Below, piece after piece: positions 1 through 64,000 of a stretch of DNA of 64,000 nucleotides. Source of the stretch: Beroe forskalii. Its lineage: Eukaryota > Ctenophora > Nuda > Beroida > Beroidae. Within the stretch, counting starts at the first letter, position 1. Each line of letters opens with the position of its first letter. Made by a program: the position numbers and the translations under genes. The notes under the pieces are model-generated. The model worked only from the letters and a program-made list of their open reading frames with translations, was not told the DNA's origin and made no database searches. The DNA lies in contig WFMF01000025.1 of the NCBI GenBank assembly GCA_011033025.1, forward strand, positions 793,018 to 857,017, in the 5' to 3' direction.

Positions 1-119
1 TGTTATCTTTGTCCAATGGATCCACTATTATTACTAAACCATGGGACAAAGATCATGGTGTCGATTGGACATATTTCCAATTTTGTTTATTGGCTCAAAA
101 TTGAAAATAATAAGGCGGA

Positions 120-959
120 AAACTATCCCCCACTCATCTCACTCCACATCGCACCCACTCATCTCACTCTACACATCACATCCACTCATCTCACTCTACA
201 TCACATCCATCTCATCATCAATCTACATCGCACTGTCCCATCAGCCATTCCATGACTCACCCACTCATCTCACTTTACATCACACTATCCCATCAGTCAT
301 CCCATGACTCACCCACTCATCTCACTCCACATCGCACTATCCCATCAGCCATTCCATGACTCACCCACTCATCTCACTTTACATCGCACTATCCCATCAG
401 CCATCCCATGACTCACCCACTCATCTCACTCTACATCGCACTATCCCATCAGCCATTCCATGACTCACCCACTCATCTCACTTTACATCGCACTATCCCA
501 TCAGCCATCCCATGACTCACCCACTCATCTCACTCTACATCGCACTATCCCATCAGCCATCCCATGACTCCATGACTCGCCCACTCATCTCACTCTACAT
601 CGCACTACCCCATCAGCCATCCCATGACTCGCCCACTCATCTCACTCTACATCACACTATCCCATCAGCCATTCCATGACTCGCCCACTCATCACACTCT
701 ACATCACACTATCCCATCAGCCATCCCATGACTCACCCACTCATCTCACTCTACTTCGCACCGTCCCATCAGCCATCCCATGACTCACCCACTCATCTCA
801 CTTTACATCACACTATCCCATCAGCCATCCCATGACTCACCCACTCATCTCACTCCACATCGCACTATCCCATCAGCCATTCCATGACTCACCATCACAT
901 GAATCAGTTTCACTATCCCATCAGCCATCCCATGCACTATCCCATTTCACTGTCATCCC
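120..959. repeat. 52-bp minisatellite
   Basis: About sixteen imperfect copies of a C-rich unit near 52 bp lie head to tail. Each contains CCCATGACTCACCCACTC, then CATCTCACTCTACATCGC and ACTATCCCATCAGC. Copies differ by substitutions (tctac/tttac/tccac) and a few short indels. Reading frames here are by-products of the repeat. Confidence 0.95.
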
Positions 960-1326
960 ATCCCATGACTCAAATTCAATCGATTCCAAAATTTGCATGG
1001 ACACAGTTTATGGCATAAGACAGCGTCTGTGAAAATTTGAAGCATTTTCATCCGAAAATATAGAAGATATTGCAAAATTAAAATAAAATCAGTTTCGGAC
1101 CGAAACTGGCAGTTTCGGTCCGAAACTGATTATTAAATTCTTTTATAGCTTGGTCATTTTTGGATGAAAATGCTTCAAATTTTCACAGACGCTGTCTTAT
1201 GCCATAAAATGTGTCCATGCAAATTTTGGAATCGATTGGACTTTCACAAATGGTTTTATGAGTGAAATGGTCAAAATTTGCGCGCAGCACTTTCGGTCCG
1301 AAACTGATTCATGTTGTGCACAGTTA
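960..1326. mobile_element. Foldback (MITE-like) element, copy 1, inserted in minisatellite
   Basis: The segment is largely self-complementary. The stretch around 1013-1055 (GACAGCGTCTGTGAAAATTT and on) is the reverse complement of 1155-1205, and the centre holds two facing copies of CAGTTTCGGACCGAAACTG. The right end reads CTGATTCATGTTGTGCACAG, as in the copy at 7873-8199. Minisatellite resumes at 1327, so the element appears to have landed inside the array. The left boundary is uncertain; a TIR-like ATGAATCAGTTTC is already present near 899. No coding capacity. Confidence 0.75.
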
Positions 1327-1465: not shown

Positions 1466-2008
1466 TCATCAGCCATGGACCATTCCACCCGTTTCACTCC
1501 AAGTCCAACATCTGACATTATCGACACACAACATTTAAGGTTAAGTCAAATTTGAAAGCTGCCAACCAAAGAACCTCGAGTGAATAGAATTCGCAATGCA
1601 ATAAAGCTAGGTATACAACGAAAACATCGATAGACCAAGAACTGAGCGGGAAATTGGAGCAGCACAGTACTGTCAAAACAAATACGAAACATTACCCTGT
1701 CTACACATAAGATCATAGCTATTATTAGCTTTCTCTTCCTTGTAACTTTGTAATGAGCTCTTATAAGCCAGTGAAGAGGTATGTTATCCAATAGGGATTT
1801 CTCCACTTCTCCAGAAACGGAGATATTTTTCTCCGCGCATTCGCAACTCGAATTCGCGGAGCCGCGCACAACGCAGGGGTCACGCAAAAATAACAACGCC
1901 CGCAGTCGTTAGTCGTAATCTATACTTTAATGGATTTCCTTGTGACGGAACGCGCGAAAATTGACACTTCGCGATCTTAGGCTGCTCATTACTTTTTGCG
2001 CCTACTAT
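1466..2008. other. No gene recognised
   Basis: Non-repetitive flank outside the inverted duplication. A 116-codon open frame lies on the minus strand (1546-1896), but it resembles no family I recognise and has no receptor TM motifs, although it sits just beyond exon 3 of the minus-strand receptor copy. Confidence 0.4.
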
Positions 2009-2039
2009 AGGTAATCTCTGAAGACGTTCCGTAACTCAC

Positions 2040-3463
2040 CAGAGGATGTAGAGGGAGTAGGGCATACACACGAGGGTTTTCAACAGGTCTGCCGTAACGA
2101 GGTTAACGAACCACGGGTAAAGTTGGGAGGTCGTGGCCAGCAGGGCGATTAGAGCCATTCCGTTCCCTGGGATATACCATCATTCTAGAGAGATTCAGTT
2201 AGGACTCCACGCATTCCAGGAATAGTTTCGAAACTCTTTTAGTTTTGGAAAGAGAACTACATGAATACAGCATGAAATCTGTAAAAACAACGTCTTCACA
2301 TTGATTAACGTTATCAGTTATTGTAACGACTAACGTTATTGATAACGATAATCCAGAGATATAAGTTTGAAATTAAATGGAAGTCCACATCATGGCCATT
2401 CCGTTCCCGAAGAAGGAACACAGGAGGATAACTAGGATGATGGCGAAGTACACGTATTCAAGTTCTGGGTAAATCGGCTGAACTGAAACAATGGCATGTC
2501 ACGTTATTTTCACACTATATTTCAATACACTGTCGATTAGTTTGGCCAGCGCATCCGGCTCCGGCGATTCGACACAGCGCTACTTTGCTTTAAGACTTAT
2601 CATGAACTATGATAGGTATTTTGCCTTCAGATAAATTATGATGACAGAATCAATAAACGACTCATAATTTCTGATTATCTTTGATTCTGACATGGAATTT
2701 GTATGGGTTCACTAATTCAAGCGCGACGCCCTTCGAAAATCCTTCAGAAAATAAAAGAACATATTATGTGAATGAAATTAGAAATAATCAGGCTTTGTTA
2801 CTTTTATCTAGTACACCTGGCAGCATAATAAAATCATTGGATATCTTTGTATGAAATTTTGAATATTCCCTTCAAGTCAAAACTTCAAAAGATTTATTAA
2901 ATTAGAAGGAGTTGTTAACCATAACTTTGGAAGTTAGCATATGGTGAAATGAAGCGAAACTGATTGAAGAATGAAAACTTCGTGAAAAGATAGTGAAATA
3001 GAAAAAAAAATCAAAAAATGCAATCATTTCATTATTGTTAAATACTTAAATAGGTTACTTGAAGAGGTACTTTGCTGGAGACGGAATGGATGCCTGGCAG
3101 TTGCAATTAATGCTCAAATGGAAATGAAAGTTCTTCAAGATTTTTAGGGTCGTTGGATATGAGCCAGGATGATTGGAGCTTTGACTTTCGGAGTAAATTT
3201 AAGTATTGATTATGTGTGCTGAAAAGCCACCTGCTGTGCCCGCTAGGTTTCACAATTTCTCAAGAAAATGGCAGAGTGTGCTCTAGTGAATTAATGAATA
3301 AATCTATTAATTAGGCTGATTAATTAGGCTGATTAATTAGGCTGATTAATTAGGCTGGGTAAATCGGCTGAAGTTGTGTGGGTTGACTTTCTGTAGAAAT
3401 GAGCGGGATAATGATACCCCCACTGTAATTGTCCGGTAACTCGAAGAAATCTCCCATATCCAT
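2040..3463 (-). pseudogene. Partial duplicate of class A GPCR gene (exons 1-3)
   Basis: Minus-strand copy of the first three coding exons of the receptor at 47795-50525: exon 1 3463-3373 (91 nt, starts at ATG 3463), exon 2 2482-2408 (75 nt, TM1), exon 3 2166-2040 (127 nt, TM2 with the ADLL motif). Against the other copy there are eight base differences (3+2+3), all synonymous. The acceptors (TTTCAG before exon 2, CCCAG before exon 3) and the exon 3 donor (GTGAGT) are intact. The donors after exons 1 and 2 are absent. Exon 1 is followed directly by the first 18 bases of exon 2 (3372-3355), and exon 2 by the first 13 bases of exon 3 (2407-2395). The duplication ends inside intron 3, so exons 4-6 are missing. 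I infer a non-functional 5' fragment, unless the lost donors are an assembly artefact. Confidence 0.85.
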
Positions 3464-3576
3464 CGTCAAGCTGTGTCTGTCAAACTGTGGTTACTCGCTC
3501 TACCTTGTGACTTGCAGTTGTGGAACTTTGATTCTCAAGCGGTCAGACTGAGCCATGAATCTTGAGAAGAATATGC

Positions 3577-4682
3577 GGCACATTACCACTTGTGCAAACC
3601 GCCGATTCGGCGCCTATAGGCGCCGAATCGGCGCCTATAGGCGCCTATAAGTTTTTTTCGGCGCCGATTCGGCGCCTATAATTGACATTTTCCAATTTTT
3701 CGGCGGTCATCGGCGCCTATAGGCGCCGATAAGCGCCGATAAGCGCCTATGGACCGCCTATCGGCGCCGTCGGCGCTTTTCGACCGCTTATCGGCGCCTA
3801 TATTTCGGCGCCTATAGGCGCCTATAGGCGCCGATATTGATTTCTAGCAATCTATGTTATTCCTCTTTTTTCGATGAATTAAGACAGTCATGAACTGGCG
3901 AGGATGAGTTTTATTAGCTGAGCTCCGAGTCTATGACCTATATTCATTGGCCTAAATTCTATAGGCGCCTATAGGCGCCTATAGGCGCCGATGAATTAAA
4001 GTAGTCCTAAATTGGCCCGCAACATCGTTGGGTCAGGATTAGGGCTAAACTTGGGGTTAGGGTTGGGTTAGGGTTAGGGTTAGGGTTAGGTTAGGGTCAG
4101 GCTAACTCCAATCCCTAACCCAAACCCTAACCCAAACCCTAACCCAAACCCTAACCCAAACCCTAACCCTAACCCAAACCCTAACCAAAACCCAGACCCT
4201 AACCCTAACCCAAACCCTAACCCTAACCCTAACCCTAACCCAAACCCTAACCCCAACCCAAACCTTAACCCTAACCCCAAACCCTAACCTGACATACCGT
4301 GAAACGAAAGCGCACGCCAATTTAGGACTGTTTTTAATTCATCGAAAATAGGCGCCGAAAAAGGCGGAAGAACACAGATTGCTAGAAGGAAAAATCGGAC
4401 GAAGAAACAGTATCGGGCGCCTTCAGGGCGCCTATAGGCGCCTATAGACGGTTGAAAACATAGGCGCCGATAAGCGGTCGAAAAAGCGCCGACAGCGCCG
4501 ATAGGCGGTCCATAGGCGCTTATCGCTTATCGGCGCCTATAGGCGCCGATGACCGCCGAAAAATTGGAAAATGTCAATTATAGGCGCCGAATCGGCGCCG
4601 AAAAAAACTTATAGGCGCCTATAGGCGCCGATTCGGCGCCTATAGGCGCCGAATCGGCGGTTTGCACAAGTGGTAATGTGCC
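3577..4682. mobile_element. 1106-bp palindromic element with 8-bp target duplication
   Basis: The ends are long inverted repeats starting GGCACATTACCACTTG and ending CAAGTGGTAATGTGCC. The arms (about 3577-3855 and 4390-4682) are packed with GGCGCCTATA-type motifs. The direct repeat GAATATGC flanks it at 3569-3576 and 4683-4690. The paralogous arm has a single GCATATTC at 47654-47661 with no insert, which gives an empty site. An 8-bp duplication fits hAT-type insertion, but no transposase is encoded, so the class is inferred. Its middle holds telomere-like repeats. It sits 114 bp upstream of the ATG of the duplicated receptor fragment. Related motif remnants occur at 33120-33243 and 41785-41880. 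Confidence 0.92.
4038..4290. repeat. Telomere-like TTAGGG/CCCTAA degenerate tract
   Basis: GGGTTAGGGTTAGG-type repeats run to about 4100, then switch to the opposite strand as CCCTAACCCAAACCCTAACC-type repeats to about 4290. The head-to-head polarity fits the palindromic symmetry of the host element. Open frames of Leu-Gly or Val-Arg repeats across it are repeat artefacts. Confidence 0.9.
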
Positions 4683-6346
4683 GAATATGCTAATAGAATA
4701 GGTAGAAACTACAGTATAATATGAACTGAAGGCTTCTAAACAAATGTGAGTATATGGGTTATTGTTCCTATTTTCAAGAAAAATATTCTATGTTTAAACT
4801 ATATTTTGTTTTCGAGGTCATTTATCATTGATGCAAACTGTCTCTATTTTCGGATACAACCATTAAAAATGTCAGCTTCAGCGCTCATAGACCAGAGCAA
4901 ATGCCGCAGGTGATATTTGAAAACCAACAAATTAAAGAAGTCAGGAGACATTGAAAACAGTCAACTGAGTAAACAAAGTCCACTCAGACATATTGAGGTT
5001 TAACGACTGAGGAGTGAGGAGAATATATTCAAGTTTCAGTAAATAAAAGAGAACAGTTCAAATGACATTGGCCGAGTATTCAGTGTTAATAAGCTTTTAA
5101 GACCATTTCATTTTGATATTAAATTTGATTGCGATACCCGATTGAGGGGAAATGGGCATAAAGTATGAGATAAAGTTGAGAATATGTAAAGTAGGTACAG
5201 TTCTCTGCATAACTATGTAACTATGGAACTTATACGAGTTATTCTAATTTACAGGAATATTCAGATTCTGCAATACCTATCTCAAATCTAGATATCTATC
5301 CGGGATCCATGGTGAGCAAAAGTAACATCAAGTTACTAAGACATCAGAATAAAATCTCAATTTGACAAATTCACGGATTATTGGCAAATCTCTTTTAGAT
5401 AATTTGGATATTTAGTATAAGAGCTGCGCGAGAAACTTATGTTTTAATGCTACAATAACCATTTCCAGGTAGCAACGCCCCGACCTAACAAAGCAACGAC
5501 CTAACGAAGCAATGACTAATGAATATGAAGATACGAGATCAAACGCTTGTAAAGAGATTAAAGGGAAAGGTCCCATGACCAATAACATATCGAGATATCC
5601 AATATCCATCAAACTAATATCAATCAAATCAATAACACAGATGACCTGCGTATAACGGTACCTATAACGGCATGTCGGTATAATCATGAATGATGATATT
5701 TAGATCCTTATGATTCACAACCGAGTGATTCTCAGAAAGACTTTGGTGAGTTCCCATCATCAAGAGGCAATGAATGAAATCCGAAATGTAAATATATCAT
5801 AGAGCATGGCTATCACAGTACATCTCGACCAATTCAGATGGGTCATTTACATCATAATGTAAAGAGTGAGTGATTTTACATCAAAATGCAAATAATGGGT
5901 ACATGGATGAGGGAACGTCTTCAAGAATAACATGGACCCATGATGTTACAGAATATCATGAATATGGAGCCGTATGGAGCGGAATCCCACAGGTTTACAA
6001 GAAACCAATGAACCATTCTGTTCAAAATGGATGTATGCCACTTCTTCTAGCTACGTGACCTGGATTTGCGGCTACGGATGCAGGTATAAGCTTATTAGGG
6101 AGTTTTCAAAACATCCCTCGATAAATTTGGCGACTACCGAGATCACTGCTATCAAAATGAGTGCCACAAAAGCAAGATGGTAAAATATAGATAGAATGTA
6201 CGTCATCAGCCATCGCAACCATGATCTAATAAAACTGTCATTTTCCATATTATTACAATATTAGGATTATTAAAACGATCACATGTGAGAGTTTTATGAT
6301 AGTAAATAGTTAATGAGAGTCATAAGCCAGTACGTCAACAGTCTGC

Positions 6347-6640
6347 AAAGGATGTTCCCAATGGAATTCTTCTTGCAAATTCTATGCATAGCAGAGGATA
6401 CCTGAAAACATAATAGAAAAGATTCATTCTAAGAGATATCAATGAAAAAATTATTCCAACTTTTTATTTACAAGTTGTAACTTCTATCCACACAGCCATA
6501 CTTAAATCTCCCAAGAGGCGAGATTTGCAGCAAAGAGCATAGAGCAACTCCTCATTTAACCCTCCTGCACAGTTTCCTGTACACTCAGATTAGCAAACCA
6601 TGTGGCTTCTTGGGCTTGGGATACACCTCTCACCCCTAGC
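6347..6640. other. No gene recognised
   Basis: Unique AT-rich sequence beyond the edge of the inverted duplication. I see no exon with splice sites. Confidence 0.4.
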
Positions 6641-7192: not shown

Positions 7193-7872
7193 AATCACAA
7201 AGAAAACTTTCTTCAAGACATCAATCTGCAAGACTTTTCTTGGTGTGACTCACTTAGATCCTACTGCTCTCCACTACATTACCAACCCCCCCCCCCAAAG
7301 GGATCATGCTGGTGTTCAAGTCGAAATTGGAGAAAAGTCTTACAGATTAATGTCTTGAAAAAATATGTTTAAACCCTGATTTTTCAGGGGAAGCATCTCT
7401 CAAGATGGAGCATTGGATCAGGATGCATGCCACTCCCATTAATTTTATTAATGTGCAATGTAAAAGGTCACAAATAACCCGGATCCATCCACTGGTCCTT
7501 TACATCTAGTGAAAAACTAAAAATGCAATGATGGATTCAAATCAGATCTACTTTACACCACTGATTTACTGCCAGTTTCGAGAAAACAGCATTGAAAATG
7601 ATTATATCATCTCTCGTCTTCAGAAAACTCCAATTGGTGATAAGCACCTTCCTTAGTTAGTTATATTAATGTCTTGTGTTGTAAATCAAAAATCATTAAT
7701 TTAATTTAAATAAAAGTACAATAAAATCTTAATTCATTACAAATTAACCAATTGTTGAAAAAACAATCTCTCAATACAGAAAAAACAATATTGATCATAG
7801 GATCATATGATTTTTTAAATAGACTTGTTTATTTCCCAGGGTGCAGTTTAGTTTGAGGTGCCAATCTCATAG

Positions 7873-8199
7873 CTAACTGTGCCCAACATGAATCAGACAG
7901 CGTCTCTGAAAATTTGAAGCATTTTCATCGAAAAATGACCAAGCTATAACAGAATTTTATAGTCAGTTGAAACTGCCAGTTTCGGTTGGAAACTGACTTT
8001 ATTTTAATTTCGCAATATCTTCTTCATTTTCGGATGAATACGCTTCAAATTTTCACAGACACTACATTTAATGTCACAAACTGTATCCATGCAAATTTTG
8101 GTATCCATTGGACATTCATAAATGGTTTTATGAGTGAAATGGTCAAAAACAGTGTGCAGCACTTTTGGTCCGAAACTGATTCATGTTGTGCACAGTTAG
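7873..8199. mobile_element. Foldback (MITE-like) element, copy 2
   Basis: Terminal inverted repeats CTAACTGTG..CAACATGAATCAG and CTGATTCATGTTG..CACAGTTAG bound an imperfect palindrome of 327 bp. Its sequence matches the element at 960-1326, including the facing CAGTTTCGG motifs and the AAATTTTCACAGAC arms. No clear target duplication beyond one or two bases; no coding capacity. Confidence 0.85.
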
Positions 8200-8262
8200 G
8201 TTGTGAGGTAAAAATGGTAAACTGCCACTCAAAACACAACCCATTTGTTTCTGCCAATTTTC

Positions 8263-40786: not shown

Positions 40787-42213
40787 TGATTTTGGATATA
40801 GACATTGAAAAGCAATAAATATAGAAAATGTTTCCTTCTAAGTGGGGATGGAAGAGGGATACCATTGTACCATTCCTCTAATATTGCGCCAAATTACCCG
40901 ACTAATTCAATAATTCTAAAATCTAAATCTTTTAAAATATCGATATACCAGCGCCGATCTTTGAACTTTAAGGCTTAAAGGGATCCCTCCATTGATATCC
41001 AAATATCTACATTAACTTAAATTCTTTCATTAAATTCTGTCATGGCTCCATTAGGCATTTTGTTGCCAATGTTTAGCTCCACGGGTCACGTATATCCTCA
41101 ATATATTCTTAGGTAGGTACCAACTATAATAATAGATACCAAGGAACACTTGCGCTCTGAATTTCCATGACAAATTAAGAATTAAACTTTCAAATTACTG
41201 AGTTAGCTGATCTGTCAGTTAGATGTCCGACGGCTCCGTTCAGATCGTTAAATTCACGCAACGTCCTTCAACCAAATGATATTTGTGTTACCATAGTTCC
41301 GGTTTCCGCTTGTTTCCTTATGAACATTGAGGAGGTAGGTAATACATTTTCAAGGAAAAGAGCTGATACCTACTTGATGACAAGTTTTTCGCATCTAGAC
41401 ATGGGCTTCAGGTATACAGTCATACTGGATTAAATTAGGCTTTATTAAGTGTTCTTTCTTTGCACTTCAAAGTAAAGAGATGTCCAATAATGCAGTGGTG
41501 CTGGATATTAAATATCAAGTTAGGTAGTACACCCCACCGGTCGTAATTCAATGAGACCGAAGTTATCGTGGAATGTTATCAGAATTATCACCCTCGTTTT
41601 GTGAATTGTTGGTAAAAATTGGTGTTTTATTCATACTTCAGTCCACCCGTACCGACCACAATACTTTGCCTACTACTACAAGCTCAGAGTCCCATTTTAT
41701 CATTTTCTTTGTGCTCTGAACCGTTTTGGATTTGCAATGATTCTTTAATCATAACCACCTAAAAGTGGGTGGTTGGCAATAGGACAAAGTGCCGAATCGC
41801 TCACTTGGTGCCTATAGGGGCCTATCAAGCGCCTATTGGTGCCTGTTAGGCTCCCATAGGCGCCTAGTCGGCGCCTATGTTTTTGTTTTCATTAACTTTT
41901 TGGCCCTCATCTTTTCGGTTTTTACCCTATCCTTTTCAGTTTTCCCACCTATCCAGTCGACTGTACAAACTTACAGTTACAAAATAAGATTGGAGCTAGT
42001 GCAATGTGATTTGCCATGTACTGTTTTATTAAATTATGCGAAATAATTGATTTTACCCTGTAATAAATATAGAGTTACCGTTATATTATGCTACTAATAT
42101 TCTTTTTATGCTCATTATTAATGCCTATTACTACTCTCTAACTATACCTGTACTGATCTATTCGACCTTGTAACTTAATAAGTTAATAAGTTAATAATGA
42201 TGGTAAGTGAGCT
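40787..42213. other. No gene; GGCGCC remnant
   Basis: 41785-41880 holds GTGCCGAATCGCTC, GGTGCCTATAGGGGCC and GCGCCTAGTCGGCGCC, a remnant related to the 3577-4682 element. The rest is AT-rich and without exons. Confidence 0.45.
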
Positions 42214-44922
42214 TGCAGACTGTTGACGTACTGGCTTATGACTCTCATTAACTATCATAAAACTCTCCCATGTGATCGTTATGATAATCCTAATATTGTA
42301 ATAATATGGAAAATGACAGTTTTATTAGATCATGGTTGCGACGGCTGATGACGTATTCTACCTATTTTGCTTTTGCTGCACTCATTTTGATAGCAGTGAT
42401 CTCGGTAGTTTCCAAATTTATCGAGGGATGTTTTGAAACTCCCCTAACTCCCTAAGCTTAGACCTGCATCCGTAGCCGCAAATCCAGGTTACGTAGCTAG
42501 AAGAATTGGCATTTTGAATAGAATGGTTCTTTGGTTTCTTGCAAACCTTTGGGATTCCGCTCCATACGGAGCTCCATATTCATGATATTCTGTAACATCA
42601 TGGGTCCATGTTATTCTTGAAGACGTTCCCTCATCCATGTCCTCATTATTTGCATTTTGATGTAAAATCACTCACTCTTTACATTATGATGTAAATGACC
42701 CATCTTGTGAATTGGTCGAGATGTACTGTGATAGCCATGCTCTATGATATACCTACATGTCTGATTTCATTCATTGCCTCTTGATGTTTTGATGATAGGA
42801 ACTCACCAAAGTCTTTCTGAGAATCACTCGGTTATGAGTCGCATAAGGATCCAAATATCATTATTCATGATTATACCGACATGCCGTTATAGGTACCATC
42901 ATACGCAGGTCATCTGACTTATTGATTTGATTGATATTAGTTTGCTGGATATTGGATATCTCGATATGTTATTGATCATGGGACCTTTCCGTTTAATCTC
43001 TTTACAAGCGTTTGATCTCGTATCTTCATATTCATTAGTCATTGCTTTGTTAGGTCGTTGCTCACTGCGTCGTTAGGTCGTTGCTACATCGAGGTAGTAA
43101 TTGCTTTATTGTATCACTAACAAAAGCATATGTTGCTTTGATTTGTTTATTTGTACAAATTACCCAAATGATCCAAATAAGATTTGTAAGGATTTGCCAA
43201 TAAGCCGTGAATTTCGTCAAATCTAGATTCTATTCTGATGTCTTAGTAACTAGATGTTACAGATTCCAGATAGATATCTAGATTTGAGATAGGTATTGCA
43301 GAATCTAAATATTCCATAAAAATAGAATAACTCGTATACCATAGTTATGCAGAGAACTGTACCTACTTTACATATTCTCAACTTTATCTCATACTTTATG
43401 CCCATTGCCCCTCAATCGGGTATTGCAATCAAATTTAATATCAAAATGAAATGGTCTGAAAAGCTTATTAAACACTGAATACTCGGCCAATGTCATTTGA
43501 ACTGTTCTCTTTTATTTACCGAAACTTGAATATGTTCTCATCACTCCTCAGTCGTTAAACCTCAATATGTCTGAGTGGACTTTGTTTATTCAGTGGACTG
43601 TTTTCAATGTCTCTTGAATTTGTTGGTTTTATTATATCACGTGCGGCATTTGCTTTGGTCTAGACAGCTGAAGCTGCATTTTTAAATGGTTGCATCCGAA
43701 AATAGAGACAGTTCGCATATGATTAGTCGGCGTATTTGAAATTGGCGGATCGGATAGAACATCCGCGCCGGCTCACAAGTAAACTTGGTCACGTGACATC
43801 AAGACATGGGCCAATCAGAGGGCAGTAGGAGACGCTGGACGCGCGCGCAACTCAGCGCGTTCTCAGAGACAGATAGTCCTCGAACGCAGGACGATTCATC
43901 CGCTGAAAGGTACTCACGAATTAGAGACAGGACGGCAGAGGACCTGAGGTATAGTGATTCCACCTTAACCCAAACTCTCTACTCCAAAGTATATCAAGTA
44001 TAAGTACTTTGCTTGTTGAAACACTCGACTTTACTGCCAAGCGGGACAAAATATGAGAGAGAAACGAGCTTCAAGTTGATCAAGAAGCATTTCTCATCTT
44101 CTAAGCAGTCTCGACGTGGGAGACGATGCATCTGTTTTCTGATCAGGAAGTCCGATGTTTTTCCAATCATATCCTGTATAATAATATTTCCTTGTGTTTG
44201 AAGAATCATGACAGATCTGGATATTGTTACAATCTTATGCTGTAAAAATTTGGAGCTGTTGTACCTTGTCTACCTTCAAATAGTCTGATCACCGTCTGAT
44301 ATCCAAAAAGCAAATTTGAAAGCTTGTTTATCATTAATTTATGCTCATTAAACTGAGTAATCACATTGAGGTACAAATAACGACGGAGAGACAGGGCTGC
44401 ATAGATTGGGCGATTGGCTGCCAGAGCCTGTTTCATAATAAGAAACACTATTATTGAACGTGTTCAAGTCCGACAAATTGTCTTGATTATGCTCTACCTA
44501 CATAGTAATTCGAAAAGCATTCTATAAGCATAGCTATAAGCATCACCACAACAATCTTTAATTTACACCATGTATCATTTCAGGTAACCCGACTATCGTC
44601 AGGTGGAACAAATATAGCGATCGACTGACTGAGATATGATCTCTGTCATGACGATTCGATTGGTGAGGAAGGAAATTCTAAATCACAAATGTGCCCAGAT
44701 TTTCTCTAAACTTATTACCCCGATAAAAATATTTCCTTGTGTTTCGATCCAAATGAGATTTACTAGAAATGGCACAAAATGGCACAAAATCACAAATTTG
44801 GTCGCTAAAACAGTAGCATTTTGGCTTGTTATTATCTCACAAGCAATTTCTAAGATTTTGGGCACTCACAAGGCGTTGATATAAGTCTTTTGTACACTTT
44901 AACAACATTATTGTGATTTCAG

Positions 44923-45025
44923 GCGACTCGCATGCTACACTCTATGGTGAAGATAAAGCTCTTGGAAGGCTGCCGGTTAAAGTTCGTCATATCATCTCGG
45001 TGGCACATTCTATACCTGATCCGAG
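44923..45025 (+). other. Exon-like segment in repeat unit, copy 1
   Basis: 103 nt between a good acceptor (TTGTGATTTCAG) and a good donor (GTAAGG), open in a phase-2/phase-2 frame reading about 34 residues (DSHATLYGEDKALG, then GRLPVKVRHIISVAHS and IPDPR). It is identical in the three copies of the unit. I do not recognise the family. It may be a captured host exon or a piece of the element's own gene. Confidence 0.45.
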
Positions 45026-45282
45026 GTAAGGAAGTTTTAGAGTACTCATCTGACCGAGCAAACGCGAAGCATTGCCTTAACTTATAAGCTGTGAGCTTCA
45101 TTTTTACATTTTTAAATTTCTAACGGCTATTGATATCGGTATCCTTATAGACTTTAAATTTTAGCTTCCCATCCCTCTAAGTTTGCATGTATCGAGCTTG
45201 CATCATGATTCTGTTAGCTTCATAATTTGCAAAATGTCAGAGATCTTATTGTATGAGAAGCTTGACATCGAAAATACAAAAT

Positions 45283-45353
45283 AGCATCGAACGGGAATCG
45301 AACCAGGATCTTCCCCTTACGAGCCAGGCACAATACCATTGAGCTACCGCGGC
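45283..45353 (-). pseudogene. tRNA-Thr-like sequence (left unit)
   Basis: Mirror copy of 45916-45986; same A box, CTCGTAA loop and B box on the minus strand. Confidence 0.5.
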
Positions 45354-45915
45354 CATGGCTGAAAAGTATTTTGATGCTTCATATTCACTATTTGGTAATT
45401 CGACCAAAATTTTCCAAAATTGCAAGATATTTCTTCCTTAGGCAATTCCCCGTTGTAACCTCAATAAAAACCAAAATCTGGAGTGAAATAACCCTGGAGT
45501 ACGGCATTTCTCCGGGTGGGAAGCTAGAATATCAAGTCCTACTGTCATGACGATACCACTGCCTGTAGGATATCACTACCTGTAGTCGCTAGGAAGATGA
45601 AAGGAGCTCCTCGACCAAAAAGTACCTTATTACTTACCTTATCGTATCAACCGGTATCAACAAGAGAACAAGCCACCGATCTGACATTATCATCTCGGTT
45701 ATATAGGTAGCGGTATCGTTATGACAGTAGGACTTGACATTCCAGCTCCCCACCCGGAGAAATGCCGCACTCCAGGGTTATTTCACTCCAGATTTTGGTT
45801 TTTATTGAGGTTACAACGGGGAATTGCCTAAGGAAGAAATATCTTGCAATTTTGGAAAATTTTGGTCGAATTACCAAATAGTGAATATGAAACATCAAAA
45901 TACTTTTGAGCCATG

Positions 45916-45986
45916 GCCGCGGTAGCTCAATGGTATTGTGCCTGGCTCGTAAGGGGAAGATCCTGGTTCGATTCCCGTTCGATGCT
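45916..45986 (+). pseudogene. tRNA-Thr-like sequence (right unit)
   Basis: A box TAGCTCAATGG (45923), a seven-base loop CTCGTAA giving anticodon CGT (45946-45952), and a perfect B box GGTTCGATTCC (45965-45975) are at tRNA spacing. The acceptor halves (GCCGCGG and TCGATGC) and much of the anticodon stem do not pair. The internal polymerase III promoter looks intact, but a working tRNA is unlikely. A tRNA-derived SINE or pseudogene is the better reading. Confidence 0.55.
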
Positions 45987-46235
45987 ATTTTGTATTTTCG
46001 ATGTCAAGCTTCTCATACAATAAGATCTCTGACATTTTGCAAATTATGAAGCTAACAGAATCATGATGCAAGCTCGATACATGCAAACTTAGAGGGATGG
46101 GAAGCTAAAATTTAAAGTCTATAAGGATACCGATATCAATAGCCGTTAGAAATGTAAAAATGAAGCTCACAGCTTATAAGTTAAGGCAATGCTTCGCGTT
46201 TGCTCGGTCAGATGAGTACTCTAAAACTTCCTTAC

Positions 46236-46338
46236 CTCGGATCAGGTATAGAATGTGCCACCGAGATGATATGACGAACTTTAACCGGCAGCCTTCCAAG
46301 AGCTTTATCTTCACCATAGAGTGTAGCATGCGAGTCGC
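46236..46338 (-). other. Exon-like segment in repeat unit, copy 2
   Basis: Same 103-nt segment as 44923-45025 in the inverted unit, with the same acceptor and donor, read on the minus strand. Confidence 0.45.
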
Positions 46339-47794
46339 CTGAAATCACAATAATGTTGTTAAAGTGTACAAAAGACTTATATCAACGCCTTGTGAGTGCC
46401 CAAAATCTTAGAAATTGCTTGTGAGATAATAACAAGCCAAAATGCTACTGTTTTAGCGACCAAATTTGTGATTTTGTGCCATTTTGTGCCATTTCTAGTA
46501 AATCTCATTTGGATCGAAACACAAGGAAATATTTTTATCGGGGTAATAAGTTTAGAGAAAATCTGGGCTCATTTGTGATTTAGAATTTCCTTCCTCACCA
46601 ATCGAATCGTCATGACAGAGATCATGTCTCAGTCAGTCGATCGCTATATTTGTTCCACCTGACGATAGTCGGGTTACCTGAAATGATACATGGTGTAAAT
46701 TAAAGATTGTTGTGGTGATGCTTATAGAATGCTTTTCGAATTACTATGTAGGTAGAGCATAATCAAGATAATTTGTCGGACTTGAACACGTTCAATAATA
46801 GTGTTTCTTATTATGAAACAGGCTCTGGCAGCCAATCGCCCAATCTATGCAGCCCTGTCTCTCCGTCGTTATTTGTACCTCAATGTGATTACTCAGTTTT
46901 GAGCATAAATTAATGATAAACAAGCTTTCAAATTTGCTTTTTGGATATCAGACGGTGATCAGACTATTTGAAGGTAGACAAGGTACAACAGCTCCAAATT
47001 TTTACAGCATAAGATTGTAACAATATTCAGGTCTGTCATGATTCTTCAAACACAAGGAAATATTATTATACAGGATATGATTGGAAAAACATCGGACTTC
47101 CTGATCAGAAAACAGATGAATCGTCTCTCACGTCGAGACTGCTTAGAAGATGAGAAATGCTTCTTGATCAACTTGAAGCTCGTTTCTCTCTCATATTTTG
47201 TCCCGCTTGGCAGTAAAGTCGAGTGTTTCAACAAGCATAGTACTTATACTTGATATACTTTAGAGTAGAGAGAATGGGTTAAGGCGGAATCACTATACCT
47301 CCGGTCCTCTGCCGTCTTGTCTCTAATTCGTGAGTACCTTTCAGCGGATGAATCGTCCTGCGTTCGAGGACTATCTGTCTCTGAGAACGCGCTGAGTTGC
47401 GCGCGCGTCCAGCGTCTCCTACTGCCCTCTGATTGGCCCATGTTACGTCACGCGCTGGTCACGTGCGCGGCAGCTCGAAGAGTCACCAAGCAGTCCGCCA
47501 ATTTCTAATATAATGAACTTGAAAACAAATTACGGTTGAAACGATTATTTTTCTTGAAAATAGGAGCAAAAACCTATATACTCACATTTGTTTAGAAGCC
47601 TTCACTTCACATACTGTAGTTTCTACCTATTCTATTAACTTATTAAGCTATGAGCATATTCTTCTCAAGATTTATGGCTAAGTGTGACTGCTTGAGAATC
47701 AAAGTTCCACAACTGCAAGTCAAAAGGTAGACCGAGTAAACACAGCTTGACGGACACAGTTTGACGGACACAGTTTGACAGACACAGTTTGACG

Positions 47795-50525
47795 ATGGAT
47801 ATGGGAGATTTCTTCGAGTTACCGGACAATTACAGTGGGGGTATCATCATCCCGCTCATTTCTACAGAGAGTCAACCCACACAGCGTGAGTAGCACTAAT
47901 CAGCCTAATTAATCAGCCTAATTGATCAGCCTAATTAATAGATTTATTCATTAATTCACTGGAGCACTCTGCCATTTTCTTGAGCAATATTGTGAAACCT
48001 AGCGGGCACAGCAGGTGGCTTTTCAGCACACATAATCAATACTTAAATTTACTCCGAAAGTCAAAGCTGCATTTCCAATCATCCTGGCTCATATCCCACG
48101 ACCCTAAAAATCTTGAAGAACTTTCATTTCCATTTGAGCATTAATTGCAGCTGCCAGGCATCCATTCCGTCTCCAGCAAAGTACCTCTTCGAGTAACCTA
48201 TTTAAGTATTTAACAATAATCAAATGATTGAATTTTTTGATTTTTTTCTATTTCACTATCTTTTCACGAAGTTTCCATTCATCAATCAGTTTCGCTTCAT
48301 TTCACCATATGCTAACTTCCAAAGTTATGGTTAACAACTCCTTCTAATTTAATAAATCTTTTGAAGTTTTGACTTGAAGGGAATATTAAAAATTTCATGC
48401 AAAGATATCGAATGATTTTATTATGCTGCCAGGTGTACTAGATAAAAGTAACAAAGCCTGATTATTTCTAATTTCATTCACATAATATGTTCTTCTATTT
48501 TCTGAAGCATTTTCAAAGGGCGTCGCGCTTGAATTAGTGAACCCATACAAATTCCATGTCAGAATCAAAGATAATCAGAAATTATGAGTCGTTTATTGAT
48601 TCTGTCATCATAATTTATCTGAAGGCAAAATACCTATCATAGTTCATGATAAGTCCTAAAGCAAAGTAGCGCTTGGTCGAATCGCCGGAGCCGGATGCGC
48701 TGGCCAAACTAATCGACAGTGTATCGAAACTAGTGTGAAAATAACTTGACATGTCATTGTTTCAGTTCAGCCGATTTACCCAGAACTGGAATACGTGTAC
48801 TTTGCCATCATCCTAGTTATCCTCCTGTGTTCCTTCTTCGGGAAGTTACTCATCATCAGTTGGACTTCCGCTTAATTTTATACTAAGATCTCTGGATTAT
48901 CGTTCATCAATATCCACTGCAGTGAAGACCTTGTTTTTTCAGATACCTATTTCATGCAGTATTCCATATTGTTTTTTTTCAAAAATAAAAGAGTTTCGAA
49001 ATTTTTCCCGGAATGCGCGGAGTCCTAACCGAATCTCTCTGATATGATGGTATATTCCAGGGAATGGAATGGCTCTAATCGCCCTGCTGGCCACGACCTC
49101 CCAACTTTACCCCTGGTTCGTTAACCTCGTTACGGCAGACCTGTTGAAAACCCTCGTGTGCATGCCCTACTCCCTCTACATCCTCTGGTGAGTTACGTCT
49201 GAGATTACCTAATACTCTAATAAAAGGTGTACATACGCAATCTTTGATTGTCAGATTGGAATATTGACAACTTGAGACAATAGCAACAAGTTGATGTCAC
49301 ATTTGGGATTCCTTATGAAAAATGGAGTCATTGAGAGGGGTTAGGGGCTTTCAAACTTTCAAAATAATATGATTTCGCAACATTTTGTTTCTGTAAATCC
49401 ACAAGTGTACACATGTAACGGGGGTTTGATTTTTGAAATCGACTTATAAAACTTCATACCTACATGTGAATTCTGAACGGCTCCTACTCACTTGACCGAA
49501 AATTACGAAATATGAGGTGATAAACTGCATAAACTCACTCACAATTACCCAAGTATGCAAGAATCTGTTTGCAAACATTTATCACTTGTTTTGACACTTT
49601 ATTACCACTCACTTATGTTTCAAAGTTGCAAGTATAATTGTCACCAATGACTTACGGATAATGAGTACTTAAATAGTGTGAAGACTGACGGTGCTATCCC
49701 TGCAGGCAGTTTGAAACGTACAGAACGCCAGGAGAAATGATACCCCGCCCCTCCTACTGCACCACCGAGGGGTAGGTTGGAAATTCCAACTCTTATCTTA
49801 AATCTCTGCGATATAAGATAATATTGTTGGAATGTTGGAGGGTGCCATCCCTCCCTACATGGTGATTGGCGTGATTTCTGGCCTTCTGAATATCAATACT
49901 TGAAAATAAATCATGTTGGTCTGAAAATGATTATTTGTTATGAATTAGTCTTCCCATGAAATGTCTAACTTTGTATCGCCTGTTCTCAGTACGATATTCC
50001 TGACGTGTCTGCTGGTATCCCTGCTAAGTAACGCTGCTATAGCCCTGGATAGGGTGGTGGCTATCACAGTTCCCATCTTCTACTCCAACATTCAGCGGAG
50101 GATCCGGCCCTGGCTCCTCATTATCAGTACCTGGCTACTGGTGGCTGTTACAGCTCTAGTACCTGCTCTATTCACTGACGGGTACTGTAAATTTCATGTA
50201 CATAATATACATTTCGTGTAAATGTACACAAAATGTGGATATGAATATACACAAAATTTACCTTTATTTATGAATATACACGAAATGTTCAATATGAATG
50301 TACACCAAATGTACTCTATGAATTTACACAAGATGCACAAATGAACATACACAAATTGTACAATGTACATTACATCAGGTACATGTACACGGACATGCTC
50401 CCAACCTGTAACCTGGAGCTGCACAACCTCTTCTACCGCATCACGGACTCTAGCAAGGCTAAGATATACGCCGGAGTCGCGTACTCCATCCTCTTCGGCA
50501 TTCCCATCGTCGTCGTGTGTGTCAG
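47795..50525 (+). CDS. Class A (rhodopsin-like) GPCR, exons 1-6, TM1 to TM5 only
   Basis: Orphan seven-TM receptor fragment of about 232 residues. Exons: 47795-47885 (ATG; 30 extracellular residues), 48766-48840 (TM1), 49061-49187 (TM2), 49706-49771 (ECL1), 49990-50181 (TM3-TM4), 50379-50525 (ECL2-TM5). Phases join without frame change; from exon 3 on all introns are phase 2. Hallmarks: GN of TM1 (FFGNGMALIA), ADLL of TM2, Cys before TM3 (SYCTTEG), DRV in place of DRY, Trp of TM4 (ISTWLLVAV), Cys in ECL2 (MLPTCN) and Pro of TM5 (FGIPIVV). No TM6 CWxP or TM7 NPxxY exon is visible downstream. The base after the exon 2 end gives GGAAGT where a donor GTAAGT is expected. A MITE begins at the exon 6 donor. 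The ligand class cannot be told. It could be a truncated or decaying gene, or its last exons may lie where I could not recognise them. Confidence 0.88.
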
Positions 50526-50526
50526 G

Positions 50527-50637
50527 TACCTTAGTGGTAGAAATTATGATGCGTACTAATTATGATTATTTTCGCAAAATGATCATAATTAGTACGCATC
50601 ATAAATTCTACACATCATAATTTCTACCACTAAGGTA
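50527..50637. mobile_element. MITE hairpin at the exon 6 donor of the GPCR
   Basis: TACCTTAGTGGTAGAAATTA faces TAATTTCTACCACTAAGGTA, with inner facing GCGTACTAATTATGAT and ATCATAATTAGTACGC; possible TA target. The first base of the element is the T of the exon 6 donor GT (50526-50527), so the present donor is made by the insertion junction. Confidence 0.85.
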
Positions 50638-50849
50638 TAGTATTTCTACAGCGGACACCATGTTAGTTTGCCCACGGGCCATGTTGCCCACGGCACGTTA
50701 TGGCTCGAACAATCAACGCGCAGTTTTACACCAATACTTCGCGCTGATTGGTCGAAATTTAACTTGCTATGGGTTAACTGATGTTCTGTCGGTGATAATA
50801 ACCTGAGGTGTGACAGCTCAATGATTTAAAGGTTTTCCAACTAAAATGA
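50638..50849. repeat. Imperfect inverted repeat with ATTGGTCGAAATT hairpin
   Basis: GGACACCATGTTAGTTTGCCCA faces TGGGTTAACTGATGTTCTGTC in outline (21-22 bases, several mismatches). The inside has CAATCAACGCGCAG and GCGCTGATTGGTCG, similar to the hairpins at 28008 and 34125. Confidence 0.45.
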
Positions 50850-62624: not shown

Positions 62625-62696
62625 CAATATCACACTCGCCTTCGGCTCGAGTGATATTGGAATTATAGCACTCGCCTTCGGCTCGAGCAATATTAG
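62625..62696. repeat. Tandem CTCGCCTTCGGCTCGAG hairpins
   Basis: Two copies of CACTCGCCTTCGGCTCGAG, each followed by a TGATATTGGAATTA or CAATATTAG segment. CTCG..CGAG makes each a small stem-loop. It abuts the start of the third repeat unit. Confidence 0.8.
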
Positions 62697-64000
62697 AAAT
62701 TGGCGGACTGCTTGGTGACTCTTCGAGCTGCCGCGCACGTGACCAGCGCGTGACGTAACATGGGCCAATCAGAGGGCAGTAGGAGACGCTGGACGCGCGC
62801 AACTCAGCGCGTTCTCAGAGACAGATAGTCCTCGAACGCAGGACGATTCATCCGCTGAAAGGTACTCACGAATTAGAGACAGGACGGCAGAGGACCTGAG
62901 GTATGGTGATTCCACCTTAACCCAAACTTTCCAAGGTATTCAAGTATAAGTACATTGCTTGTTGAAACACTCGACTTAACTGCCAAGCGGGACCAAATAT
63001 GAGAGAGAAACGAGCTTCAAGTTGATCAAGAAGCGTTACTCATCTTCCAAGCAGTCTCAACGTAGGAGTCAATGCATTTGTTTTCTGATCAGGAAGTCCG
63101 ATGTTTTTCCAATCATATCCTGTATAATAATATTTCCTTGTGTTTGAAGAATCATGACAGACCTGAATATTGTTACAATCTTATGCTGTAAAAATTTGGA
63201 GCTGTTGTACCTTGTCTACCTTGAAATAGTCTGATCACCGTCTGATATCCAAAAAGCAAATTTGAAAGCTTGTTTATCATTAATTTATGCTCATTAAACT
63301 GAGTAATCACATTGAGGTACAAATAACGACGGAGAGACAGGGCTGCATAGATTGGGCGATTGGCTGCCAGAGCCTGTTTCATAATAAGAAACACTATTAT
63401 TGAACGTGTTCAAGTCCGACAAATTGTCTTGATTATGCTTTACCTACATAGTAATTCGAAAAGCATGCTATAAGCATAGCTATAAGCATCACCACAACAA
63501 TCTTTAATTTACACCATGTATCATTTCAGGTAACCCGACTATCGTCAGGTGGAACAAATATAGCGATCGACTGACTGAGATATGGCCTCTGTCATGACGA
63601 TTCGATTGGTGAGGTAGGAAATTCTAAATCACAATTGTGACCAGATTTTCTCTAAACTTATTACCCCGATAAAAATATTTCCTTGTGTTTCGATCCAAAT
63701 GAGATTTACTAGAAATGGCACAAAATCACAAATTTGGTCGCTAAAACAGTAGCATTTTGGCTTGTTATTATCTCACAAGCAATTTCTAAGATTTTGGGCA
63801 CTCACAAGGCGTTGATATAAGTCTTTTGTACACTTTAACAACATTATTGTGATTTCAGGCGACTCGCATGCTACACTCTATGGTGAAGATAAAGCTCTTG
63901 GAAGGCTGCCGGTTAAAGTTCGTCATATCATCTCGGTGGCACATTCTATACCTGATCCGAGGTAAGGAAGTTTTTGAGTACTCATCTGACCGAGCAAATT
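62697..64000 (+). mobile_element. Third copy of the 1.8-kb repeat unit, cut by window end
   Basis: Starts AAATTGGCGGACTGCTTGG, as in the right unit of the 43739-47504 palindrome (47504 inward), and runs collinearly through the CCAAT segment (62765), the 73-codon minus-strand frame (63173-63394) and the exon-like segment to the window edge. The tRNA-like part and any inverted partner would lie beyond 64000. Confidence 0.92.
63859..63961 (+). other. Exon-like segment in repeat unit, copy 3
   Basis: Identical over 103 nt to 44923-45025, with the same TTTCAG acceptor and GTAAGG donor. Confidence 0.45.

Follow-up and report, generated by a model that had tools for sequence, protein, structure and literature searches.

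In polymerase-theta end joining, templated insertions are short tracts copied from sequence close by, and one edge of the tract has microhomology. In RT-DSBR a spliced exon-exon junction is found in genomic DNA, base-exact and also at consecutive introns, the introns being deleted whole (PMC12065846, in the part of that report used here). In mRNA-mediated intron loss, cDNA made by reverse transcriptase from the spliced message recombines with its own gene (PMC3652778, likewise in part); the expected product is again a gene that has lost the intron. Retrocopies absent from the human reference (retroCNVs), in turn, yield exon-junction reads in genomic DNA (PMC3554589, as far as the portion used here describes them).

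Here we describe a receptor gene of the ctenophore Beroe forskalii, copy A of an inverted pair, in which the start of each of the first two introns carries the letters of the next exon. The locus shares with RT-DSBR a base-exact spliced junction at consecutive introns, but it retains introns 1 and 2 (890 and 241 bases), of which only the first 18 or 13 bases are next-exon letters; the precise absence of the intron that defines RNA-templated whole-intron deletion is thus not what is found in copy A. The same retention separates it from mRNA-mediated intron loss, which it resembles in that a spliced message would have met its own gene. As in polymerase-theta insertions, a short copied tract has microhomology at one edge, but the template in copy A would have been spliced, and the tract in intron 2 replaces an equal number of bases. 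Whereas the junction of a retroCNV is seen in reads, in copy A it would have been written into the consensus of the parent gene. Among the papers listed by our literature search, none dealt with such an artefact or with partial overwriting of introns.

An inverted pair of receptor genes

The window, by which we mean the whole stretch of 64,000 nucleotides analysed (C303:793018-857017), carries an inverted duplication in which parts of 2008-6348 match parts of 42213-49211 reversed, with insertions. Each arm holds one copy of a rhodopsin-like receptor gene, copy A on the minus strand and copy B, inverted relative to it and about 44 kb away, on the plus strand (Table 1). The joined copy B protein, taken without exon 3b and with a few wrong residues at the join of exons 4 and 5, matched PF00001 (7tm_1) with an E-value of 2.2e-17 and 63.8 bits over profile positions 1-171 of 260. 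A weak query for the exons of the last two transmembrane helices found none in the vicinity of copy A or copy B. Intron 3 is 3,338 bases long in copy A, partly owing to 52-base tandem repeats near window positions 93-1020, against 518 bases in copy B; exons 3b, 4 and 5 of copy A therefore fall outside the window, at C303:790906-791718, 1.3-2.1 kb to the left of its start. The presence of these exons rules out that copy A is a truncated fragment, and the introns kept between exons 1 and 5 rule out a processed pseudogene.

Table 1. Positions in the window of the exons, overwritten donors and intron 1 repeats of the two receptor gene copies
Feature	Position	Strand	Basis or remark
Copy A exon 1 (start codon at 3463)	3373..3463	-	alignment to copy B, shared frame
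Copy A, 18-base tract replacing the intron 1 donor, identical to the exon 2 start	3355..3372	-	sequence identity; 0/19 slides usable
Copy A, 13-base repeats (CCTAATTAATCAG) of intron 1	3304..3354	-	one unit more than copy B, just after the tract
Copy A exon 2, acceptor TTTCAG intact	2408..2482	-	alignment with copy B
Copy A, 13-base tract replacing the intron 2 donor, identical to the exon 3 start	2395..2407	-	sequence identity; 0/15 slides usable
Copy A exon 3, normal donor (TCTG followed by GTGAGT)	2040..2166	-	alignment with copy B
Copy B exon 1, normal donor GTGAGTAGC	47795..47885	+	alignment with copy A
Copy B exon 2	48766..48840	+	alignment with copy A
Copy B intron 2 start, GGAAGT, +2 base G as in exon 3, no GT donor	48841..48846	+	C232 relative has GT
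Copy B exon 3	49061..49187	+	exon comparison with copy A
Copy B exon 3b	49706..49771	+	exon comparison with copy A
Copy B exon 4	49990..50181	+	exon comparison with copy A
Copy B exon 5	50379..50525	+	exon comparison with copy A

We searched the assembly (216 Mb, 1134 contigs) for further copies of the gene. A DNA query made of window 2300-3500 found only copies A and B. A 98-residue protein query covering exons 1-3 found nine places, six of which are exons of copies A and B and one a distant relative on contig C232 (54% identity over 41 residues), the remaining two being weak (E 0.15 and 0.47). An intron-free copy of the receptor gene was not found in the assembly by either the DNA query, which spans exons 1 and 2 with intron 1, or the protein query.

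Over exons 1-5 (698 bases, 232 codons) the two copies differ at 15 positions, all of them silent, leaving all 232 residues identical. With 24% of random changes silent, such an outcome has a probability of 7e-10 without constraint, and of about 3e-5 if half of the changes, those on copy A, were free. On this comparison of their coding sequence both copies look like working genes under strong constraint, and the silent-only divergence also supports the use of exons 1-2-3 as coding sequence. The implication is that copy A worked until very recently or still does, and hence that the loss of its donors is very recent or exists solely in the assembly.

The window holds other structural features. 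A stretch of telomere-like sequence, a TTAGGG run followed by CCCTAA and flanked by inverted GGCGCC-rich repeats, lies at 4050-4290 inside the copy A arm. A foldback stretch with long inverted ends lies directly at the donor of exon 5 in copy B (50525-50645). Nested palindromes, together with another inverted copy of the same sequence, occupy 43804-47443 and 62690-63998.

Next-exon sequence at the donors

An earlier, sequence-only reading of this DNA had reported that in copy A 18 bases of exon 2 follow exon 1 and 13 bases of exon 3 follow exon 2, and both matches proved exact when read again. Bases 3372-3355 (minus strand) read TTCAGCCGATTTACCCAG, as do the first 18 bases of exon 2 (2482-2465), and bases 2407-2395 (minus strand) read GGAACGGAATGGC, as do the first 13 bases of exon 3 (2166-2154). 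With up to three mismatches allowed, the 18-mer has three matches in the window, all exact (two in copy A and one in copy B exon 2), against 0.04 expected; the 13-mer, with up to two mismatches, has five, two of them exact, against 0.85 expected. Because the first four bases of the 13-mer (GGAA) are also present in the copy B intron, the evidence for the second tract rests on the nine further bases. By our own arithmetic the fixed-register chance is about 4^-9 for the 13-mer, counting these nine informative bases, and about 4^-18 for the 18-mer, and the lengths of the in-register matches rule out chance as the cause of the tracts.

Both tracts begin with an exact exon-exon junction, with 0 and 1 bases shared to the left, so a spliced source is well supported. 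Where the second tract repeats exon 3, it has copy A's own variant, GGAAC, against GGAAT in copy B. The acceptors are untouched, as the sequence-only reading had it, introns 1 and 2 having ordinary acceptors in both copies. Its further claim, that the replaced stretches kept their length, holds for intron 2, where the tract replaces the copy B sequence without a gap, but for intron 1 only if the extra 13-base unit is counted as ordinary repeat variation. Relative to copy B, the 18-base tract amounts to nine changes in 18 bases, and, with copy B standing in for the original of copy A, it stops where the following six bases would all mismatch. A CAG is common to its right edge. The start of exon 2 is similar to the 13-base repeat of intron 1; their best match is 13 of 18 bases, a score reached in 0.11% of 20,000 shuffles. 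Beyond its start, intron 2 differs between the copies at 21 of 171 aligned bases with 38 more gapped, and copy B is therefore a poor stand-in there for the original bases of copy A.

Intron gain with a target-site duplication, or a tandem duplication, was ruled out by three facts: the C232 relative has an intron with GT at the same position as intron 2, the donor of intron 1 is normal in copy B, and over the remainder of that intron the copies show just 22 differences in 813 aligned bases (13 gapped).

The sequence-only reading had also placed intron start sequence at both of these sites in the other copy. This is correct for intron 1 of copy B, a GT-AG intron with no repeat at its ends (right match 0, left match 0), but not in full for intron 2, where the sequence after exon 2 reads GGAAGTTAC and begins with GG rather than GT. 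The usual donor consensus is GTAAGT. Since the copy B hexamer is a single base away from it, and since the C232 relative reads GTACGG at this donor, intron 2 of copy B has most likely also lost its T, either in the assembly or in fact. The four-base match of GGAA to exon 3 is weak evidence when taken by itself, because intron 4 of both copies has a four-base match to its next exon together with an ordinary GT donor.

Sliding the intron boundaries along the repeats does not restore a usable splice site: a GT-AG, GC-AG or AT-AC pair was obtained at 0 of 19 slides for intron 1 of copy A, 0 of 15 for its intron 2 and 0 of 6 for intron 2 of copy B. If the assembled sequence is real, copy A is broken at intron 1, and intron 2 of both copies permits only GG-AG or something odder. 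Could intron 2 be a functional, truly ancestral GG-AG intron? Both copies do begin it with GGAA and permit the pair, and rare GG-AG introns exist, one of them in human CPSF3 (PMC4176328, in the part used here). Odd splicing of this kind is nevertheless rather improbable, as intron 2 starts with GT in the distant C232 relative and the start of copy A intron 1 offers no usable donor, while the further changes in copy A would need another cause.

The 18- and 13-base direct repeats flank both stretches in copy A, as they would if they were pointers in a programmed excision that cuts the stretches between them from the DNA of some cells. We regard this option, which the sequence-only reading had raised, as hardly credible: copy B, whose protein is identical over exons 1-5, lacks a repeat at intron 1 and has no more than GGAA at intron 2, and in copy A the acceptors are ordinary, as are the donors of exons 3, 3b, 4 and 5, which all begin with GT (that of exon 3b reads GTAGG in both copies).

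Source of the tracts

Our preferred reading, to which we assign a probability of about 0.5, is that intron-free reads of this gene introduced the tracts as an error into the assembly consensus. Reads with exons 1, 2 and 3 already joined would have been placed on the intron-bearing locus and would have run from a few to about 20 bases beyond the end of an exon, where their next-exon bases outvoted the true intron bases. Outvoting without gaps would replace the donor base for base, and at intron 2 of copy B an overhang of four bases would alter only T to G. The animal itself would then carry ordinary GT donors in copy A and, at intron 2 of copy B, probably GT as well. The reads might come from RNA-seq data that served for correction, or from the DNA of a retrocopy or intron-loss allele absent from the assembly; the latter source, though inferred, fits better because only this gene pair is affected in the DNA examined. 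We likewise infer the overwriting route as a whole, the original bases of copy A and the order of events.

A consensus error accounts together for three faulty donors in one gene pair, for the gap-free exchange in intron 2 and for the conflict between working genes and unusable donors. All three non-GT donors that we read lie in this pair and each matches the next exon from its first base, and both copies are under strong constraint, yet none of the three donors has a usable splice pair at any slide. The reading depends on intron-free reads from this one gene, of the kind that absent retrocopies yield in humans (PMC3554589). Should the tracts be such an artefact, they show that splice donors can be lost unnoticed from an assembly through intron-free reads, so that functional genes seem broken or odd introns are invented.

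Several observations count against this reading. The DNA and protein queries recovered no intron-free copy from the assembly. Nearby DNAI1-like, COG4-like and P450-like genes, which should also have yielded RNA reads, show no overwriting in their readable introns, and these intact introns, together with the absence of an excess in our scans (see below), make plain RNA-seq polishing of the whole assembly doubtful. Of the two main options of the sequence-only reading, a spliced template and RNA-seq polishing, both stay live: the starts of the tracts at splice boundaries speak for a spliced template, whereas the intact donors of the neighbours and the lack of an excess in 267 kb speak against polishing across the assembly. 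Reads should overhang in both directions and overwrite donor and acceptor sides alike, yet in introns 1 and 2 of the two copies three of four donors are altered and none of four acceptors, an imbalance with a probability of about 0.07 by chance (own arithmetic). Nine changes within 18 bases exceed the expected tolerance of common aligners, so that several rounds of correction or a lax aligner would be needed. Lastly, the divergence of intron 2 noted above makes copy B a weak proxy for what copy A originally carried.

Alternatively, the patches may be real. Breaks near the two donors of copy A would have been repaired from spliced cDNA of copy A itself, leaving a very recent, broken germline allele. 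The sense 3' end of exon 1 (or 2) would pair with antisense cDNA and be extended by 18 (or 13) bases into the next exon, after which the end would be released and a short match (CAG at intron 1) would serve to rejoin it to the intron. Such repair suits the exact starts at splice boundaries with copy A's own exon 3 variant, the CAG common to the right edge of the first tract, and the resemblance of the exon 2 start to the intron 1 repeat (13/18, shuffle frequency 0.0011); a change at donors only would be expected if an antisense template was copied from a sense 3' end. Frames of a putative Penelope-like reverse transcriptase, recognised by eye, lie nearby. In yeast, a gene can be repaired with the cDNA of its own transcript as the template (PMC11390984, in the part used here), and in human cells spliced RNA can guide the repair of breaks, leaving whole-intron deletions (PMC12065846).

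We consider this repair the main rival of a consensus error, though less probable. The outcome in human cells, in the part of PMC12065846 used here, is loss of the intron and not a short patch with the intron kept, and that part of the report excludes both retrotransposons and microhomology end joining; the route proposed above, through cDNA and microhomology, therefore differs from the one shown. Two patches in one gene require two events or a single complex one, the gap-free exchange in intron 2 is left without a reason, the GG donor of copy B requires a separate cause, and in 267 kb such repeats are no more frequent at acceptors than expected. If the patches were nonetheless real, they would be a visible case of abortive RNA-templated repair, with the gene killed by overwriting of its donors instead of losing its introns. 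They would also be a footprint of information flow from RNA to DNA in an animal germline, invisible to ordinary scans for intron loss, and scanning intron starts for next-exon starts would offer a simple way to count such events.

The 13 of 18 matches between intron 1 repeat and exon 2 start would also suit copying from DNA, in which ectopic gene conversion or template switching moved the exon 2 start onto the similar repeat, and the exon 3 start onto intron 2, without RNA. Short local copies of exon or acceptor sequence do occur in nearby introns (28 bases at L012 7732 and 8212; 16 bases at L030 4597 and 4669). Both tracts, however, start exactly at splice boundaries, the match extending 0 and 1 bases further left, and DNA copying provides no reason for that to happen twice, which leaves this explanation improbable.

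Extent of donor overwriting

A consensus error might be expected to affect many genes, and this was not seen in 26 hand-read introns or in 267,517 bases of scanned sequence. The 26 introns come from the receptor pair, the C232 relative and the three nearby genes, whose names were given by eye. They were chosen by eye from reading frames while looking for GT, so the sample leans towards GT, and it leaves aside COG4-like introns 4 and 5 and other exons that could not be placed. Within it, 23 of 26 introns begin with GT, the exceptions being copy A intron 1, copy A intron 2 and copy B intron 2, which match the next exon from the first base over 18, 13 and 4 bases, respectively. An acceptor was entered for 23 introns (all but DNAI1_i7, DNAI1_i8, whose exon-end string was found twice, and COG4_i8); the match between intron start and next-exon start is 0-4 bases in 21 of these, and 18 and 13 bases in the others.

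The scans cover about 257 kb of C303, the contig of the window, and 10 kb of C232. Among repeats of at least 10 bases joining two open frames (267,517 bases), 70 were preceded by AG against 71.1 expected, and the other dinucleotides scattered, the highest being GC (83 against 49.6); the second tract is counted here under CA, with its one base shared to the left. Acceptor-like AG sites gave 33 of 5,731, or 5.76 per 1000, compared to 4.79-7.44 for seven control dinucleotides, in a scan that misses the second tract (7 of 14 pyrimidines by our own count, where 8 are required). With no AG excess in these two scans, wide overwriting across the scanned parts of C303 and C232 was set aside as unlikely.

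A cruder scan of the window and L012-L031 counted AG before the second copy of a repeat against AG before the first. The counts were 85 against 54 at a length of at least 13 bases (15 against 10 with a pyrimidine tract), 57 against 36 at 15 or more, and 167 against 167, hence no difference, at 11 or more; the cases that it listed are mostly tandem or dispersed repeats. When at least 8 bases and a coding score on both sides were demanded, AG had 13 matches, within the range of 6 to 14 for the 15 remaining dinucleotides. The sole AG match over 9 bases was the second tract of copy A, the first not having passed the filters. GT-AG introns with terminal repeats numbered 34, compared to 25-43 for eight other end pairs.

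Repeats at intron ends were also seen elsewhere. In L023 (C303 near 874934), an 11-base direct repeat stands at both ends of an intron (7934-7944 and 8149-8159), where the exon end equals the stretch after CCTAG; alternatively, this may be a GT-AG intron with a TTGAAG acceptor. For the gene, perhaps TPR-like, a PDB search was uninformative (9 sequences, best E 0.33), and its best Pfam match was a sub-cutoff TPR_1 (E 0.012). In L012, an exact 28-base piece of a DNAI1-like exon occurs in the intron upstream of the preceding exon (7732-7759 and 8212-8239), and the 10 bases that open a DNAI1-like exon (GCATGGCGTG) are found again several times, exactly or nearly so and mostly after AG or AA, at the end of the preceding intron (4633-4760). 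In the C232 receptor relative, an acceptor and exon start (CAGGTACATATTCCAC) are duplicated 72 bases apart (L030 4597-4612 and 4669-4684).
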